A stretch of DNA of 64,000 nt from Methanobacteriota archaeon (GTDB lineage: Archaea; Thermoplasmatota; Poseidoniia; Poseidoniales; Thalassarchaeaceae). The position numbers were made by a program, and so were the translations under genes. The notes beneath the pieces were generated by a model. It worked only from the letters and a program-made list of their open reading frames with translations. It did not search any database and was not told where the DNA came from. Every line of letters starts with the position of its first letter. Position 1 is the stretch's first letter. Of the stretch, positions 1 to 39,178 are shown in pieces. The DNA is taken from assembly GCA_002727275.1 (NCBI GenBank), contig PBWO01000019.1:24183-88182 (forward strand), written 5' to 3'.

Positions 1-1617
1 TACAGTACCATCTTCCATTGAATCGTGGTCTATTGTAACTGCCCATGGTACACCTATCTCATCCACTCGGGCATATCTCCGACCTATTGATTTGGATGAG
101 TCCATCTCACCTTTGCGTCCAGGGACCGAATTAACTCGAGTAATTACATCGTGTGCAATTTTCAACATCCCGGGCTTGTCAAATAAAGGTAGTACAGCGA
201 CGTCGTAGGGAGCTACTCTGGAGTTTAATCTCATTACTGAGTATGGCTCGCCTTCCTTCTCCGTTTCCGTGAAGGCATGGTCTAGGATGTGCCATACAAT
301 CCTGTCAATTCCGAAAGCTGGTTCGATAACATGAGGTGTGAACCACTCTCCATGTACTGTTACTTCGTCAGTTCTTCGAGTGACCATCTCTTCTGTTATC
401 CGAACCGATGAACCATCTGTGAGTTCCAAATCGAATGGTATATTTTCAGGTAACTCAGTCAATTGTGAAAGAGATTCAACCACTGCTCCAGCTTGACCTT
501 TGAATGCCGGCCCAATAACTGCAGAGATTGGAGCTAGGAAATCTTTGACTTCGTTTTTAGGCTCATCGTATTGTCTCCAAGCCCGTAATAATTTGGAACC
601 ACTTGCTCGTTCGTGTGATTCAAGATCATGACAAGTTCGGTTGGCGATACCCACACATTCCACCCAGCCATGTTCTCCGTGCAACTCACAATCCCAGCAG
701 TCTTCAGCATAGTGAGCCATCTCTGAGCCAGAATGCTGGCGAAAACGGATCTTTGACGGTTCTACGCCTACATTAACTAGAAAATCCATAGTCCTAGCAA
801 GGAACCAAGCGACGGTTGGATGGCGAATAATGCCCTTCGACAAAGCATCTTCGTAAGTCATTTCACATTCACCAGCATGATGACCTTCCGGGTCTGGGAC
901 CATCATCACCGGAGTTGACCAGATGGACAATTCTGGGCACGGAGGAGATTCTGGATCGATGAAGTACTCTAATTCGGCCATATCGAATTCACGAAGTCTA
1001 ATCATACCCTGTCGAGGACTTATTTCGTTTCGATACCCCTTCCCTGTTTGAACTGCTCCGAAAGGTAGTTTTTGCTTGAAATGTCGGAAGAGTGCAGGAT
1101 ATAACATGAACATACCTTGAGCTGTCTCCGGCCTCATGTAGGCAGACCTGCCTCTACTCATGGCACCAATCCTAGTCGAGAACATCAGATTCATTGGCCT
1201 TACATCAGACCACTTTGCTTCAGAACAAGCGGGACATGATATTCCTTGTGAGAGTAATGATGAGACCTCATCAACTGACAGTGAATCTGGGTTTTGGTGA
1301 ACATTTTCAAGTAAATGGTCAGCCCTGAATGCAGACTCGCAACTATTGCAAGAAACCATTAGATCATTGAATTCACCAACGTGTCCACTAGCAACGAGAA
1401 CGGACTCTGGAGTCAGTGTAGGCGAGTCAACTTCGACTATGTCTCCCTGACTGGTCCAATGATCAATCCATGAGTCAACAACCTTTCTTTTGATTCTAGC
1501 ACCTACGGGTCCGTAGTCTACCAACCCAGACACGCCTCCATATATCTCGAAGGAAGGAAGCACAACCCCTCTCCTTCTGAGCAGAGAGGTCAGCCTGTCT
1601 ATTCTCCTCTCGCTCAT
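1..1617 (-). CDS. glyS: Glycyl-tRNA synthetase (partial, C-terminus off the left edge)
   Basis: Reverse-strand reading from ATG at 1617: MSERRIDRLTSLLRRRGVVLPSFEIYGGVSGLVDYGPVGARIKRKVVDSWIDHW..., class II GlyRS N-terminus; anticodon-binding-domain-like sequence at the left edge. Absent from the ORF track because it runs off the window. Confidence 0.93.
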   Translation of the reverse strand, partial: MSERRIDRLTSLLRRRGVVLPSFEIYGGVSGLVDYGPVGARIKRKVVDSWIDHWTSQGDIVEVDSPTLTPESVLVASGHVGEFNDLMVSCNSCESAFRADHLLENVHQNPDSLSVDEVSSLLSQGISCPACSEAKWSDVRPMNLMFSTRIGAMSRGRSAYMRPETAQGMFMLYPALFRHFKQKLPFGAVQTGKGYRNEISPRQGMIRLREFDMAELEYFIDPESPPCPELSIWSTPVMMVPDPEGHHAGECEMTYEDALSKGIIRHPTVAWFLARTMDFLVNVGVEPSKIRFRQHSGSEMAHYAEDCWDCELHGEHGWVECVGIANRTCHDLESHERASGSKLLRAWRQYDEPKNEVKDFLAPISAVIGPAFKGQAGAVVESLSQLTELPENIPFDLELTDGSSVRITEEMVTRRTDEVTVHGEWFTPHVIEPAFGIDRIVWHILDHAFTETEKEGEPYSVMRLNSRVAPYDVAVLPLFDKPGMLKIAHDVITRVNSVPGRKGEMDSSKSIGRRYARVDEIGVPWAVTIDHDSMEDGTV

Positions 1618-1801
1618 ACTCTTCGAGCCCGAGTGGAGACTTTCAAGCCATCCTTGACGAGTAGTCTTGGGAGGCGATTGTACAATGACAACTGAATTGC
1701 GAGTATTGTTTCAATCAATTGGGTTCTGACTCCTTCGGTGCATGATATTCAGAAGCATTCATTTATTCAATCGAGGCCCTGACAACCGTAGGTGAGAGAA
1801 A

Positions 1802-4800
1802 TTGCCAGAAATTCAGTACATACAGGATAGTATGGACACCGAGGAACTCCTCGAAAGCCTCTCTCCCCCTGTTAGGAACTGGTTCCAGGAAAAATTTCCC
1901 GATTTCACAGATCCTCAGAAAATTGCAATACCTAGAATTTTGAATGGAGAACATCTTCTACTTTGTTCTCCAACAGGTTCAGGTAAGACTCTGACGGCCT
2001 TCCTAACGATCATTGATGATTTAGTTAGAAAGTCATTAGACGGAACACTCAGTGACTCAGTTCAATGCATTTACATCTCTCCAATCAAAGCTCTTGCTAA
2101 TGATATCCAGAAGAATCTCATTGGCCCTCTCACTGAGATTAAGGAGAGATTTCTACCTAGTAGGGCGAAGGACATTAAGGTCGGACTGAGAACTGGAGAT
2201 ACTCCTCAAAAGGAAAGAGAGAGGATGCTAAAAAAACCCCCTCACATCCTGATTACCACTCCTGAATCACTGGGGTTGGCGCTGGCTTCTAAGCGATTCA
2301 GACCTCTATTGCAGGAGTTGCGCTGGATCATTATTGACGAGATGCATTCATTGGTCCCCACAAAGAGAGGGACACACCTATCTCTATCGATGGCTCTAAT
2401 GGACACAGTTGTCCCAACTAACGTTCAGAGAATAGGCATTAGTGCCACCATGGAACCCCTAGAGTCTGTTGCCGAATACCTAGTTGCTAGCGATTCTCAA
2501 GAAAGTGAATTAGGGACCCAGAGAGTCTCCATAGCGAAGATTTCTGGTTCACGAGAACTCGACATGGATATCATTCTGCCAACGGCCAGATTCTCTTCGA
2601 CACCGGTCAAAGAAGTACTCGACCACAATATAGACCGAATCAAGGAACTTGTTGAGGCACATACGACGACTCTTGTCTTCGTGAATACTAGGAACATGAC
2701 TGAGACGGTCGTGCAGAGGCTCAAGATTGCTGGTTTGGAAGGAGTTGAGGGGCATCACGGCTCTATGGACAAGGCAATCCGACTTGATGTCGAAAATCGA
2801 CTCAAAAACGGCCTCCTTAGGGCTGTAGTATCCTCTTCCAGTCTTGAGATGGGGATTGACATCGGTTCCGTGGATCTTGTCATACAGGTTGGGTCTCCGG
2901 GCTCAATATCCACAGCACTACAGAGGATAGGAAGAGCAGGTCATCATGTGGGGGGAGTTCCTAGGGCCCGGTTTCTGCCAACTTCGCCCCATGATTTGTT
3001 GGAATTAGTCTCACTGCAGAACGCCATCCTACAGGGATCAATGGACATGTTGAAGTTCCCTGAAAACTGTCTTGACGTACTCGCGCAGTTTACAATTGGT
3101 CTTTCCATAATCAGAGAGTGGGATATCGATGAGGGCTACGAACTTGTGACTTCATCGTGGCCCTATAGATCACTTCCTTACGACGATTACATTGAGGTTC
3201 TAGATTTGCTTGACGAAGAGCGTAGAATTTGGATTGATTGGGAGGAAAATCGGTTTGGGAAGCGTGGTTTCGCCCAGATGATTTACTACACCAACATTGG
3301 TACAATAGCACCAGACAATAATTACCTAGTATTCACATCAGATGGAACTCTAGTCGGACAGCTGTCATCATCATTTGTATCTAGTCTCAGGAACGGAGAT
3401 GTATTCCTTTTGGGAGGTTCAACTTACAGAGTCTCTAGCGTAATCGGAACTAGGGTGAACGTTTCTTCTGCAACCGGTTATAGGCCAACAATTCCGTCTT
3501 GGACGGGTGAGGCCAACAGCAGAACTTTCGAACTCAGTCAGGAGGTACTTTCGCTACTGGGACATGTTTCGATCAGACAGCGCTTGGAGGACGACTCTAG
3601 GAAGATACTGACCGAAGCAATCGGTTTGAATGCGCCCGTAGCAAGCGCTCTTTCCGAATTCTTTGAAGAGCAGGGTGCAATGACATTCCAAGTCCCTTCA
3701 CTTGACAGAATTCTGGTTGAGCAAATCGAAGGGCCACTCCCCACTTACATTGTAACCACGTGCAGAGGCCGTGCGTTCAATATGGCACTTGGCTATCTAT
3801 TCGCAGGGATTGCCGCAGAAGATAATGTACTCGTACATGAGATATCATTCGACGAGAATGGATTCATGATCAAACTTAGTCACGAAGTGGAGATTTCTCG
3901 AATTCCACAAGTTTTCCGAGCAGGAGATAGCATTGAGACACTGAAGAGGTATCTCCTAGACTCTCAGTTGTTTGCCAAGAGATTCCGAGAAGTTTCTTCG
4001 AGAAGCATGCTCAATCCTCGTAGAGTGGGTGGCGATGAGGTTAGCCCTAAACAATTCCAACAGAAGGCGGAACGCATCATGCAGAAGCATCGGAAGATGG
4101 AAGATTCCGTTATTGTGCGTGAAGTAGTAAGTGAAATTCTCCATAACGACTTGGATATGAGGCAATTGGAAGATTTCATGTCTAGAATGGACTCAGAGGA
4201 TGTACGTATTGTACATCGCAGAGTAAAGATGCCATCGCCTTTGGGTATGACCCTGTTCATGTCCTCGTTCGAGGACTTACTTTCTCTGAGAACTCGCGCC
4301 TATCTGATTAAGGATGTAGATCCAGAGATTCTACGTCGATTGCTAGGGGCCAGATCTCTTGCTACGGAGTTGGACGAAGGCAAACTAGCCGAGTACTATC
4401 AGTCCAAAGTCTCAGTACCTACCAATGCAAATGGTCTGCTGAGATTGATGGATATGGGTGGGGGGCTAGAGCCGGGATTAACAAATCCGTTATACAACGA
4501 TAAATTAAGCGGCATTGACCAAGAGGATATCCGTGCTTGGGTTTACGAGTTGGCGGAACGCGGACTAGTTACCAAAATCAGAAACACTGGGCACGAGCAA
4601 ATTGACGGTAAGTGGTTCTCTAGCCGTATGGCTGACGTTCACGGCACCCTAGGCTGTTTAGCTATTGCCGGTGCAGCAGATATGGATGATCTCCAAGATC
4701 TGTATACCGGCGGACTAAACTTCGAAAAGGGTGTAAATTTCACCGAAGGAACGCCCGATAAATGGAAGCAGACTAGCCTTTCTGATCCCCTCGACTGTCT

Positions 4801-33983: not shown

Positions 33984-34931
33984 CTATTTCCTAGATATTG
34001 AGCGACGTGCGGCCTGCACGATATCATCAACAGTCAATCCCATAGTACGCATAAGGTCCGATGTAGAGCCACTTTGTCCGAATGTATCCCTGACTCCAAC
34101 CATTTCTAGCGGAGCAGATACATTAGTCGCGAGGTATTCTGACACTGCCCCACCCAACCCTCCAATAACAGAGTGATCTTCCGCGGTAACTAAACATCCA
34201 CAAGATTCAATCTGTTTCTGAATTAATTTAGAATCTAAAGGCTTCAAAGTATGCATATCTACGACTGAAGCACTAATTCCTTCAGCAGCAAGTATTTCGG
34301 CAGCATTCATTGCTTCAATTACCATTACTCCGCAAGAAATGATGCATACATCTTCTCCATTCTTAATCAGTGAACCCTTTCCTATCCTTAATTGGGCTAC
34401 AGATTCTTCATTGTATATCCGAGGAGTTTTGTTCCTAGCCGTTCTCATATATGTGGCTCCATCATGATCAACCAATTGTACGGTTAATTCTTCTGCAGAT
34501 AAATCGTCAGATGGAGTTATGACTGACATTCCCGGTATAGTTCTGTAGATGGCTAAGTCTTCAATTGATTGAGCACTGCTACCATCGGTACCGGTGTGAA
34601 TTCCTCCGTGGCTACCACAGATATGGACCGTGATTTCAGGCCTAGCTATCCCATTCCTAACTTGTTCAAATGCTCGCTCTGTAAAAATAGCAAAGGTACT
34701 GGCAAACGGGATCTTGCCAGATGATGCCATACCGGCAGCAACCAGCATCATGTTTTGTTCTGCAATTCCCATTGAGAATGTCCTATCGGGAAATTCTGTT
34801 CTAAAATGACATGATTTGGTGGATTTTCCTAAATCCGCTTCTAGTACTACGACTCTTGGATCTGATGCCAGTCGGAGTAGACCCTTTCCATATCCATCTC
34901 TGGATGCACCTCCCGATGACGGAGCACTCAT
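33984..34931 (-). CDS. Transketolase, C-terminal subunit
   Basis: DLGKSTKSCHFRTEFPDRTFSMGIAEQNMMLVAAGMASSGKIPFASTFAIF. Confidence 0.94.
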   Translation of the reverse strand: MSAPSSGGASRDGYGKGLLRLASDPRVVVLEADLGKSTKSCHFRTEFPDRTFSMGIAEQNMMLVAAGMASSGKIPFASTFAIFTERAFEQVRNGIARPEITVHICGSHGGIHTGTDGSSAQSIEDLAIYRTIPGMSVITPSDDLSAEELTVQLVDHDGATYMRTARNKTPRIYNEESVAQLRIGKGSLIKNGEDVCIISCGVMVIEAMNAAEILAAEGISASVVDMHTLKPLDSKLIQKQIESCGCLVTAEDHSVIGGLGGAVSEYLATNVSAPLEMVGVRDTFGQSGSTSDLMRTMGLTVDDIVQAARRSISRK

Positions 34932-35758
34932 TTTAACTCCTCCAGTGCTAATGCTAACTCCTGATCATTTGGTGCTTTACCATGAAATGAGGGATTATTT
35001 TCCATGAATGATACTACCTTTCCTTTGACAGTATTTGCTACAATAGCAGCGGGGCCGGAATTATGTGATTCGGCCCATTGTAAAGCATCAACAATTTCTT
35101 TCATTGAATGACCATCAATCTCTTTGACAGTCCAACCAAAGGAAGATAATTTAGCAGCCACATCTCCTACCTCCATCTGTAGGTGGACGAAATCATCATT
35201 CTGGATTCTATTCCTATCAATAATCACATTCAAATTACCAAGAGCATGGAAATCGGCAGCCATGAAGGCTTCCCAAACCTCTCCTTCTTGAATCTCCCCA
35301 TCACCAAGCATGACCCATATATTTCTCTCACTGTCATCCATTCTAGCGGCGAGGGCACAACCTAGGCCAAAAGACAGTCCCATTCCGAGACTACCGGCAG
35401 AGAAATCCACACCATCAGTCCATTTCATGTCGACATGACCCTGACAAACCGAGCCTAGTTCTCTAAATGACATCAAGTCACTTTCGTCAAGATATCCTAT
35501 CTCATGCAATATAGAATAAACAGCGGGACTAGCATGACCTTTACTCATGATGAATCGGTCTCGATCGAACCAATTCGAATCATTGAGATCAATTTTCATC
35601 CTAGTTCCATACAAAGCGGCGAGTAAATCTATTGCAGACAATGAACCGCCAGGGTGGCCCGAATTAGCAGCATGCGTCATTTTAACAATACTTACTCTAC
35701 ATCGCCGGGCCATATCATCCAATGCTTGCAAATCTAGCCCCATCCCCCCATTGCGCAT
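34928..35758 (-). CDS. Transketolase, N-terminal subunit
   Basis: HAANSGHPGGSLSAIDLLAALYG, MSKGHASPAVYSIL, MLGDGEIQEGEVWEA (TPP-binding). Confidence 0.94.
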   Translation of the reverse strand: MRNGGMGLDLQALDDMARRCRVSIVKMTHAANSGHPGGSLSAIDLLAALYGTRMKIDLNDSNWFDRDRFIMSKGHASPAVYSILHEIGYLDESDLMSFRELGSVCQGHVDMKWTDGVDFSAGSLGMGLSFGLGCALAARMDDSERNIWVMLGDGEIQEGEVWEAFMAADFHALGNLNVIIDRNRIQNDDFVHLQMEVGDVAAKLSSFGWTVKEIDGHSMKEIVDALQWAESHNSGPAAIVANTVKGKVVSFMENNPSFHGKAPNDQELALALEELK

Positions 35759-35782: not shown

Positions 35783-37060
35783 TTGATGGTTTCCAGCATG
35801 AACATACATTCAAGAAGAGTCATAGTTGAATTAAAATTGCATGGCATGTACCAAGTAATGAGGGGGAGTAAACGGATGTCAGATGACGATTGGAGGCAAC
35901 GCCTATCTAGAATTGAAATACCAATTTCTGTTTCCTCTAATCAATTCGTAAAATCATGTCTTGACAAGTTAATCAAGACTGGTAGACTTTCCAAAAATGA
36001 CGGGATCAATTTGATGCTTGAACCATCTCTTGTTAGTGTCACTTCGTTAGCAAACATGGTCAAACTAGCTAGACATTCTGATAATGTATTCTACAATCGA
36101 AATCTGCATATCAATACTACAAATATCTGTACACTTGCATGTAGATTCTGTGCATTCCGTAAAGGACCTAAACACGATGATGCTTACGAGATGATGCCGA
36201 ATGAATACATTGAAAGAATCTCTCCTGTTGCTTCTGAAATTGATGAAGTCCATTCTGTAGGTGGTTTACATCCTGATTGGAAAGTCGAGCATTATGCTAA
36301 GATATACTCTACTATCAAGAATGAATTTCCTCATATACATATCAAGTCATTAACAGCGATAGAGATAATACACATTTCAAAAAGATCCGGGATTTCTATT
36401 GCCAAGACATTAGAGATTCTAAATGAATCAGGACTAGATTCCATACCGGGCGGAGGAGCAGAAATTCTAGTCGATTCTGTGAGAGATAGGATTTGTCGTG
36501 GTAAAGAGTCATCTAATGAGTATCTGGAGGTTCATGCAACAGCGCACAAACTTGGTATCCCTACAAATTGTACAATGCTCTTTGGTACTGTTGAATCCAC
36601 CGAAGAACGCATTCAGCATTTGATTCGTTTGCGTAATCAACAAGACACAACCAGTGGTTTCCAATGCTTTGTACCATACCCCTACTTACCAGATTTTTCT
36701 CGCCTTCCAGAAGCGCAATTAGCAACTTCGAGTGAAGTAGTAAGAATGATTGCAGTATCTCGTCTCATGTTGGACAATATTCCCCATATCAAGGCGTATA
36801 GGATGAATTTGGGCGATCATCTCTCTGCAATCTGTCTTAATGCTGGTGCCGATGATATCGACGGAACCGTAGGCCATGAGGAAATCATGCACGATGCTGG
36901 TAGCACGACTAGACTTGATACATCTGAGGCAGAGTTGGTCAGATTGATTATGTCATCGAACTCAACACCGATTAGACGAAACTCTACTTATGATCATTTC
37001 ATCGAGGTTGAATCCGATTTTAATGGACTAAGAATAAATCTTCCAGTAAATAGTTGGTGA
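35783..37060 (+). CDS. mqnE: Radical SAM aminofutalosine synthase (MqnE-like)
   Basis: INTTNICTLACRFCAFRKG (CxxxCxxC), VHSVGGLHPDWKVEHY, LDSIPGGGAEIL. Confidence 0.85.
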   Translation: MMVSSMNIHSRRVIVELKLHGMYQVMRGSKRMSDDDWRQRLSRIEIPISVSSNQFVKSCLDKLIKTGRLSKNDGINLMLEPSLVSVTSLANMVKLARHSDNVFYNRNLHINTTNICTLACRFCAFRKGPKHDDAYEMMPNEYIERISPVASEIDEVHSVGGLHPDWKVEHYAKIYSTIKNEFPHIHIKSLTAIEIIHISKRSGISIAKTLEILNESGLDSIPGGGAEILVDSVRDRICRGKESSNEYLEVHATAHKLGIPTNCTMLFGTVESTEERIQHLIRLRNQQDTTSGFQCFVPYPYLPDFSRLPEAQLATSSEVVRMIAVSRLMLDNIPHIKAYRMNLGDHLSAICLNAGADDIDGTVGHEEIMHDAGSTTRLDTSEAELVRLIMSSNSTPIRRNSTYDHFIEVESDFNGLRINLPVNSW

Positions 37061-37064
37061 AATT

Positions 37065-37862
37065 ATGAGTTGGACAGATGTTCTTGGACGGGTTTCTTTC
37101 AGTAACTGCGATCCAGTTTTCTATGGCATTTCTGAACGCTGGAAAGTTTTCTCTGCCCCACCTTCTTGGCTATGTGGTCACGTACTTAGGAGAGACTGTA
37201 TTGCAGCTCCAATTCCAACTGCAGATTATGCCAAAAACAAAGACGAACTAATGTTACTTCCGGATCTAGCAATAGTGAGTAGAGAGAGTACAGGTTCCGT
37301 ACTAATCTTTGGAAATAGACCATTAGAAAATATGCGCGATATCGCAGTTCCTACAGATTCTTCTTCATCAAGACAATTACTAGATTGGATTCTAAATGAA
37401 AAGGGCCTAGACCCCAGGAGGGTAGAGATGGCACCCGATTTAGGGCAGATGCTCGAAGAGTGTGATGGCGCCTTAATCATAGGTGATAGGGCCTTAATCG
37501 AGTCCAAATCAAATCCCAAACTAATCGTAATGGATTTGGGTGCAGAATGGACAAAAATTACAGGATTACCAATGGTTTTTGGCGTATTTGCCGCTAGAAA
37601 AGATACTGATATGATATCTTTGTCTGAGGCCCATTCAGACATGATTGAGCAACTAGACAAATTCTACAATGATCTATCATGGAGAGCCGAGGTGATTAAG
37701 CAAGCATCAGCATCTACTGGACTAACTGAGACCAGATTAGACAACTATTACTCAACAGAGGTTTGGAACCTATTAGATCCAGAAGCAGTAAAGGGTCTTG
37801 ATTTGTACCTTGATCTGGTTTGCGGTGTTAGTGAAGGAGCGATTTGGGCTAAATTTGACTAG
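37065..37862 (+). CDS. mqnA: Chorismate dehydratase (MqnA-like)
   Basis: LGRVSFSNCDPVFYGI N-terminus, periplasmic-binding-like fold, directly follows mqnE. Confidence 0.82.
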   Translation: MSWTDVLGRVSFSNCDPVFYGISERWKVFSAPPSWLCGHVLRRDCIAAPIPTADYAKNKDELMLLPDLAIVSRESTGSVLIFGNRPLENMRDIAVPTDSSSSRQLLDWILNEKGLDPRRVEMAPDLGQMLEECDGALIIGDRALIESKSNPKLIVMDLGAEWTKITGLPMVFGVFAARKDTDMISLSEAHSDMIEQLDKFYNDLSWRAEVIKQASASTGLTETRLDNYYSTEVWNLLDPEAVKGLDLYLDLVCGVSEGAIWAKFD

Positions 37863-38335
37863 TTATCATAATTCAGTCTCTTACTCTCAACCCATTCGAG
37901 CAAATCAATTGCTACCTCACAAGACTCAGAAATTACTGGCTCAGGATCATCTCTATACTGCATCAACGTGTCGATAGCAGTTCTATCACCTATTGCCCCT
38001 AAAGCTTCGGCAGCCTCATGTCTAACCATAAGGTCCTCATGATCGTCGCTCAAGCGCTCAATAAGACAAGGAACAGCATACGAGTCTTGCATCTGCCCCA
38101 TCACATACGCTATTTCGTGCTTTAGAAGAGCAGATTGAGATGAAAATGCTGCGGCCAATGCATCAAGAGCTTCAGGTCCCCCTTGATTCCTAAGTGCAAA
38201 TAATGCCCTCATTCTCAAGAACATTTTCTCATTTTCATTACAAATTGTACTTCTCAATTCTGCGATTTTTCCACTATCTGATGCTGGCGCTGGATCAACA
38301 GAACCAAATTCACTAACTTCGGGCTTATCTGACAT
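37859..38335 (-). CDS. HEAT-repeat protein resembling a half-length deoxyhypusine hydroxylase (DOHH)
   Basis: 158 aa: ...FALRNQGGPEALDALAAAFSSQSALLKHEIAYVMGQMQD...DLMVRHEAAEALGAIGD...DDPEPVISESCEVAIDLLEW. Two His-Glu motifs (H73-E74, H106-E107) 33 residues apart, as in each half of eukaryotic DOHH. Confidence 0.8.
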   Translation of the reverse strand: MSDKPEVSEFGSVDPAPASDSGKIAELRSTICNENEKMFLRMRALFALRNQGGPEALDALAAAFSSQSALLKHEIAYVMGQMQDSYAVPCLIERLSDDHEDLMVRHEAAEALGAIGDRTAIDTLMQYRDDPEPVISESCEVAIDLLEWVESKRLNYDN

Positions 38336-39178
38336 TCATTCACCTATGAATTCCATGCTCTGAATATCGAATCTTTCATCGACGAGGCCAATCTTCTGCC
38401 CTTCCGCCAGAAACCTCCTAACAGCTTCTCTACCATCTGGGCCATAATCAATTGTCCTAGGATTGACGTACATTCCTACGAATCTTCGATTGGTATCATC
38501 GTCAATGCCTCGACCCCATTGCTTAGCAAATTCAAGTGCTGAATCTGGATTCTCCAGTGCATATTCGATACTATGACGAATATCTTCAGCTATCGAACTG
38601 CACAATTCAGACCCCAGATCTTTACGTATGATATTGCCGCCAAGTGGCAAGGGCAGTCCATCAGTTCTATCTTGCCACCATTGTCCGAAGTCAAGGATGT
38701 GATACATTCCTTCGTCCCTCCAAGTTAGTTGGCCCTCGTGAATAATTACTCCGAAATCATAGTCACCACGCTGTAGTGATGGAATGATATCATCAAATGG
38801 TACAATTGCAGTCTGCACATCGCCCAACGCTAGTCGGAGCGCTAGATAAGCACTAGTCCCAAGACCCGGAATCGCAATGACTGATTCCTTCGCCTCGCCG
38901 ATGTTGGATTCACTATTAGAAATTAGAATTGGTCCATATCCCTCACCCATGGATGCGCCGCAATTAGTCAATGAATAATGATGTGAAATTTTTGGGAATG
39001 AATGAATGCTTACGGCAGATACTTCAAACTCTCCTTGAGCCGATTTTTGGTTTAGAGATTCGATGTCCAATAGTCGATGTTCATACACTCTATCTGCGGT
39101 GTCGATTAGGCCGTTTGTCATTGCATGGAACATGAAAGCATCATCAGGGTCCGGGGAGTGTCCTATGCGTATGAGCAT
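38336..39178 (-). CDS. mqnD: 1,4-dihydroxy-6-naphthoate synthase (MqnD-like)
   Basis: IRIGHSPDPDDAFMFHAMTNGLID, VSAVSIHSFPKISHHYSLTNCGASMGEGYGPILIS. Confidence 0.9.
   Translation of the reverse strand: MLIRIGHSPDPDDAFMFHAMTNGLIDTADRVYEHRLLDIESLNQKSAQGEFEVSAVSIHSFPKISHHYSLTNCGASMGEGYGPILISNSESNIGEAKESVIAIPGLGTSAYLALRLALGDVQTAIVPFDDIIPSLQRGDYDFGVIIHEGQLTWRDEGMYHILDFGQWWQDRTDGLPLPLGGNIIRKDLGSELCSSIAEDIRHSIEYALENPDSALEFAKQWGRGIDDDTNRRFVGMYVNPRTIDYGPDGREAVRRFLAEGQKIGLVDERFDIQSMEFIGE

Follow-up and report, generated by a model that had tools for sequence, protein, structure and literature searches.

The window analysed here, a 64,000-nucleotide stretch of a Poseidoniales contig, encodes a homologue of deoxyhypusine hydroxylase (DOHH) that has the four HEAT repeats of one half of the eukaryotic enzyme, both of that half's His-Glu motifs, and a conserved glycine. 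The protein (P0001, hereafter half-DOHH) is conserved and single-domain across the Poseidoniales and some other Thermoplasmatota. We consider it probable that half-DOHH is an O2-dependent diiron hydroxylase of the DOHH type that completes hypusine on aIF5A, acting as a predicted symmetric homodimer. According to papers of 2012, 2016, 2018, and 2021, archaea have no known DOHH orthologue, though some of them contain hypusine, and in the open-access literature we found no report of DOHH in Poseidoniales, Marine Group II, or Thermoplasmatota. Half-DOHH may answer which protein performs the hypusine-completing step in some archaea, and it may hint at how the eukaryotic enzyme arose.

The plus strand is broken by stop codons over the interval of the half-DOHH gene, and the open reading frame is read on the minus strand (Table 1). 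The original prediction had the interval and the 158-residue peptide right, and its strand had to be corrected to minus. Both His-Glu motifs, H73-E74 and H106-E107, and their spacing of 33 residues were found in the translated frame as predicted. The closest relatives of the gene are in Euryarchaeota/Poseidoniales genomes (87% identity), and the organism belongs to Marine Group II.

Table 1. Coordinates of the half-DOHH gene, its motifs and its neighbours in the window, and of features in other loci where a locus is named.
Feature	Location	Strand	Remarks
Half-size DOHH-like protein P0001, 158 aa, four HEAT repeats	37859..38335	-	ATG at 38335, stop ending at 37859
His-Glu motif 1, His73-Glu74 codons (cac gaa)	38114..38119	-	equivalent to human H56-E57 and H207-E208
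His-Glu motif 2, His106-Glu107 codons (cat gag)	38015..38020	-	equivalent to human H89-E90 and H240-E241
S12-P17 segment (SVDPAP)	38285..38302	-	matches the inter-half linker that starts the human C half (YLSVDPAPP)
mqnD-like gene (PF02621, 212.9 bits)	38336..39178	-	immediately upstream; stop codon abuts the half-DOHH start codon
mqnA-like gene (PF02621, 151.7 bits)	37065..37862	+	convergent neighbour; 4-base overlap with the end of half-DOHH
MqnE/MqnC-like radical SAM gene	35783-37060		adjoins the split transketolase genes
Transketolase	33984-35758	-	split over two overlapping genes, one for the N- and one for the C-terminal part
517-aa protein, L175 (G011)	602-2155	-	half-DOHH N-terminus joined to an unrelated region
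ORF between mqnA and mqnD, L178	4536-6722
ORF between mqnA and mqnD, L179	1402-3642
ORF between mqnA and mqnD, L177	2941-5247
ORF between mqnA and mqnD, L180	1550-3841
Second DHS-family protein, L002 (G000 contig C45)	1462-2409

Among all PDB sequences the top match to half-DOHH was human DOHH (4d4z, E = 5.7e-71), with separate domain alignments to the N half (118.5 bits) and the C half (122.9 bits). The human sequence used for our comparisons has zero differences from PDB 4d4z over residues 1-289. Half-DOHH has 43.6% identity with the human N half and 43.7% with the C half, and the two halves share 38.3%; it is thus nearer to each half than the halves are to one another. An AlphaFold model built with 75 homologues (mean pLDDT 89.6; helices at 95-99 except at the chain ends) has an unstructured N-terminal stretch and eight helices arranged in four pairs, that is, four HEAT repeats. 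Foldseek searches with this model placed 4d4z first (0.7 Å over 131 columns, 44% identity, TM 0.81-0.82). The runners-up were designed alphaRep HEAT proteins, which fitted at 2.2 Å at best over comparable lengths, with two partial matches of 94 columns at 1.4 Å.

Half-DOHH could in principle be an ordinary HEAT-PBS or phycobilin-lyase-like protein whose likeness to DOHH is repeat similarity. Pfam labels it only as HEAT_2 and HEAT_PBS (63.8 and 55.4 bits, above the gathering score), which is a superfamily label and does not discriminate, and the NCBIfam phycobilin-lyase models match it weakly. Their scores are well under the cut-offs (NblB, 37.7 bits against 300; CpcE, 29.2 against 330), and the CpcE structure 5n3u falls far below DOHH both by sequence (E = 6.6e-6) and by fold (5.2 Å against 0.7 Å). 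As a negative control, other HEAT_2 proteins from the same genome and from G060 were compared with human DOHH, and none matched at E ≤ 10. The resemblance of half-DOHH to DOHH far exceeds what chance or a generic HEAT likeness would give, and the probability that we give to a generic HEAT-PBS protein is close to negligible. DOHH was the nearest relative by both PDB sequence search and Foldseek, as the original prediction had held in preferring it to phycobilin lyase. The human motifs quoted there were also accurate (H56/H89 and H207/H240 are both 33 residues apart), and so was the view that one half only is present: the protein has 158 residues and four HEAT repeats, and the half-size state is kept in more than 100 archaeal loci.

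Across 84 non-redundant archaeal homologues, 24 positions are invariant (D14, P15, P17, F39, F46, R49, S68, H73, E74, A76, V78, G80, Q81, L91, V104, R105, H106, E107, E110, A111, G113, L124, S138, and A142). One or other human half has each of these residues; 17 of the 24 are in both, and 23 are in the C half. The SVDPAP segment, with its invariant D14, P15, and P17, is unstructured and of low confidence in the AlphaFold model. G80 lies seven residues past H73, at the position equivalent to the substrate-binding glycine G214 of the human C half (PMC9117371). The human diiron ligands established by mutagenesis are H56, H89, E90, H207, H240, and E241 (PMC9117371; PMC3306375), a two-fold symmetric set divided evenly between the halves of a protein whose eight HEAT repeats are described as forming a symmetrical dyad, four on either side (PMC8153317). 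Because the ligand set is two-fold symmetric, one half of the site can be provided by one half of the protein. Each half-DOHH chain carries two His-Glu motifs, and there are four per site only if the protein dimerises.

In the mechanism that we propose, two half-DOHH chains would pair with two-fold symmetry as a homodimer. Each would contribute the H-H-E set H73, H106, and E107, corresponding to human H56/H89/E90 and H207/H240/E241, and a diiron-peroxo centre would form between the two protomers. Deoxyhypusine synthase (DHS) would make deoxyhypusine on the lysine of the SKPGKHG loop of aIF5A, and the modified lysine would enter the site, where half-DOHH would hydroxylate deoxyhypusine at C2 of the aminobutyl chain. 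Many HEAT-repeat proteins serve as scaffolds, and the DOHH activity is a prediction; half-DOHH might instead be a non-catalytic scaffold or metal-binding adaptor with a DOHH fold, for example for MqnD or in translation. We hold this to be very improbable, since invariance of H73, E74, G80, H106, and E107 over 84 diverse homologues is unexpected for a scaffold. We class half-DOHH as a half-size protein of the DOHH type, which most likely works as DOHH does.

The half-DOHH gene was present in 40 of 60 near relatives and at 80 loci of the GTDB collection, the latter found in a scan with patterns from P0001 that reaches close relatives only. A profile search of 347 Thermoplasmatota genomes yielded 76 carriers, comprising 70 of 89 Poseidoniales and 6 of 258 others, and two further non-Poseidoniales carriers were found near G101. 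This distribution by profile covers Thermoplasmatota only. Every homologue examined was half-size. Eight proteins from outside Poseidoniales are 154-196 residues long and have both His-Glu motifs and a DP(A/P)P segment (in L149, from an internal start). A fusion protein in L149 was considered and rejected, as the long GC-rich open frame holds an ordinary half-size start. Eukaryotic contamination was also rejected: scores of independent genomes of archaea, among them G037 with its single contig, have this gene at one and the same locus. The second copies present in G019, G241, and G247 probably stem from contamination or from redundancy in the assembly. Searches of viral contigs (with P0001, human DOHH, and the A1 profile as queries) and tblastn searches of phage and plasmid records detected no relatives.

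The presence of half-DOHH goes with aerobic respiration. The haem-copper oxidase gene COX1 was found in 71 of the 76 carriers, the other five being draft genomes of Poseidoniales. Among the non-Poseidoniales it was found in all six carriers against a background of 93/258 (p = 0.002, the related genomes not being independent). This is the pattern expected of an O2-dependent enzyme. That some species have lost half-DOHH accords with a hydroxylation that is dispensable, as it is in yeast (PMC9117371).

Both aIF5A and DHS, which the original prediction proposed to look for, are encoded in the genome. An aIF5A gene with the hypusination loop SKPGKHGSAK lies on the same contig as the window (C7:11760), and the DHS (L001) scores above the NCBIfam equivalog cut-off and has the KHH motif (GGGISKHH). 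DHS was also found in all nine other carriers checked. A second DHS-family protein (L002; Table 1) is without the KHH lysine motif, and models of homospermidine biosynthesis are its nearest matches. A second and similarly weak DHS-family match in G037 (C1:1771776) adjoins agmatinase (C1:1770348), a pair that recalls the speDA-speB-speY cluster of Marine Group II (PMC10407285). Six carriers (G000, G001, G003, G037, G060, and G101) were searched for Spermine_synth (PF01564) members and none was found; the aminobutyl group may therefore have another donor than spermidine. Carriers have agmatinase, and the donor may follow the agmatine route to deoxyhypusine proposed in Haloferax (PMC5178350). The question of the donor concerns the making of deoxyhypusine and not its hydroxylation.

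We found no hypusine measurement from Poseidoniales in the literature. Thermoplasmales contain mostly deoxyhypusine in one account, and T. acidophilum contains hypusine in another. Sulfolobus acidocaldarius is reported to contain hypusine, and as a member of our control list it gave no HEAT_2 match; a different hydroxylase must therefore act there, and half-DOHH cannot be the only archaeal solution. The idea that half-DOHH is a candidate for a missing archaeal step agrees with a literature in which archaea are said to have no DOHH, and it has to be narrowed to leave room for the other hydroxylase of S. acidocaldarius.

The half-DOHH gene lies beside neither aIF5A nor DHS, and in Poseidoniales it is tied to mqnD. 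It is found directly downstream of mqnD in nearly all loci of both families despite differing flanks, in the two arrangements priS< mqnD> half-DOHH> mqnA< and mqnA> mqnD> half-DOHH> priS>. For this reason a menaquinone-linked role is the main rival: the protein would be a DOHH-fold diiron oxygenase or metal protein in quinone metabolism, or would act on another substrate than aIF5A, with the mqnD-mqnA locus as its functional home. The absence of any gap between mqnD stop and half-DOHH start in the window fits such a role, as does co-occurrence among the 60 near relatives, where all 40 carriers have MqnD and none of nine MqnD-less genomes carries half-DOHH (p = 1e-5, a value inflated by physical linkage and shared ancestry). 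However, 11 of the 51 MqnD-bearing near relatives are without half-DOHH, and no homologue adjoins mqn-type genes in the loci read outside Poseidoniales. The rival is weakened further by three carriers in which no PF02621 gene was detected (G101, G359, and G360, with completeness of 92, 79, and 74%). We also know of no step in the futalosine pathway that needs an O2-dependent hydroxylase. Taken with these observations, this rival appears distinctly unlikely.

The interval between mqnA and mqnD varies among genomes. In G012 half-DOHH is cleanly absent from it, and in G011 only the first residues (EFGSVDPAPPS) remain. The 517-aa protein L175 of G011 consists of the half-DOHH N-terminus and an unrelated region with DUF531 (PF04407) at its end; the rest of half-DOHH appears to have been replaced or deleted. 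Several genomes without half-DOHH have ORFs of 728-768 codons, possibly for secreted proteins, between mqnA and mqnD (Table 1). Some species of the genus to which the window belongs, G005 (97% complete) among them, are without PF02621 menaquinone genes and half-DOHH and have kept COX1, which suggests that these species lost the futalosine locus.

Half-DOHH shows a mixed likeness to the two human halves: its core motifs are as in the N half, and SVDPAP and ESCEVA are as in the C half. This mixture, together with the equal distance to both halves, fits an undivided ancestor. The least certain of our conclusions is that the protein would resemble the ancestral half, and that a duplication and fusion could have given rise to the two-domain DOHH of eukaryotes. 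We tentatively put forward the full account, in which homodimeric half-DOHH hydroxylates deoxyhypusine in aerobic Thermoplasmatota as a living pre-duplication form, and eukaryotic DOHH would stem from an archaeal gene of this kind that was duplicated in tandem and fused.

The same activity could have the opposite history, in which archaea took up a eukaryotic DOHH, lost its N half, and kept the C half with the SVDPAP linker. Such a transfer is compatible with the mechanism proposed above and does not exclude it. It would account for the SVDPAP segment, which in human DOHH is confined to the C half, and it accords with the 23 of the 24 invariant archaeal positions that this half shares. In our unrooted tree the eukaryotic halves took weakly supported places, the C halves weakly among Poseidoniales; the eukaryotes in this tree were only the human halves and yeast halves of provisional sequence, and long branches were present. 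However, the core motifs SALLKHE.AY..GQMQD and VRHEA.EALGAIGD fit the N half at least as well, and identity to both halves is equal. The archaeal homologues are spread over several families, with a divergence (38-44% identity to distant members) greater than that between the human and yeast C halves (50%, with the provisional yeast sequence), and archaeal monophyly was not rejected in an AU test (p = 0.416). We regard transfer from eukaryotes as unlikely.

With half-DOHH from abundant surface-ocean archaea, the question of archaeal hypusine becomes testable in one co-expression experiment. If our reading is true, an unusual peroxo-diiron hydroxylase would gain a minimal, symmetric model in this protein, which would also be a candidate for the ancestral form of an enzyme essential to animals.

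Half-DOHH shares with human DOHH (4d4z/4d50; Lia1 in yeast) the HEAT fold, the 33-residue spacing of the His-Glu motifs, the glycine seven residues past the first histidine, SVDPAP, and the C-terminal ESCEVA motif. Unlike the eukaryotic enzyme, which has eight HEAT repeats and four His-Glu motifs per chain, the archaeal protein has four and two; as it does not have the architecture of two halves and eight repeats, we keep it apart from canonical DOHH. With CpcE and NblB it has PBS-type HEAT repeats in common, but it lies far under the cut-offs of those families and, for CpcE, fits poorly in fold. By function, half-DOHH as proposed is comparable to the EF-P hydroxylase YfcM, a bacterial analogue that hydroxylates the modified lysine in the IF5A orthologue of bacteria (PMC6105217).
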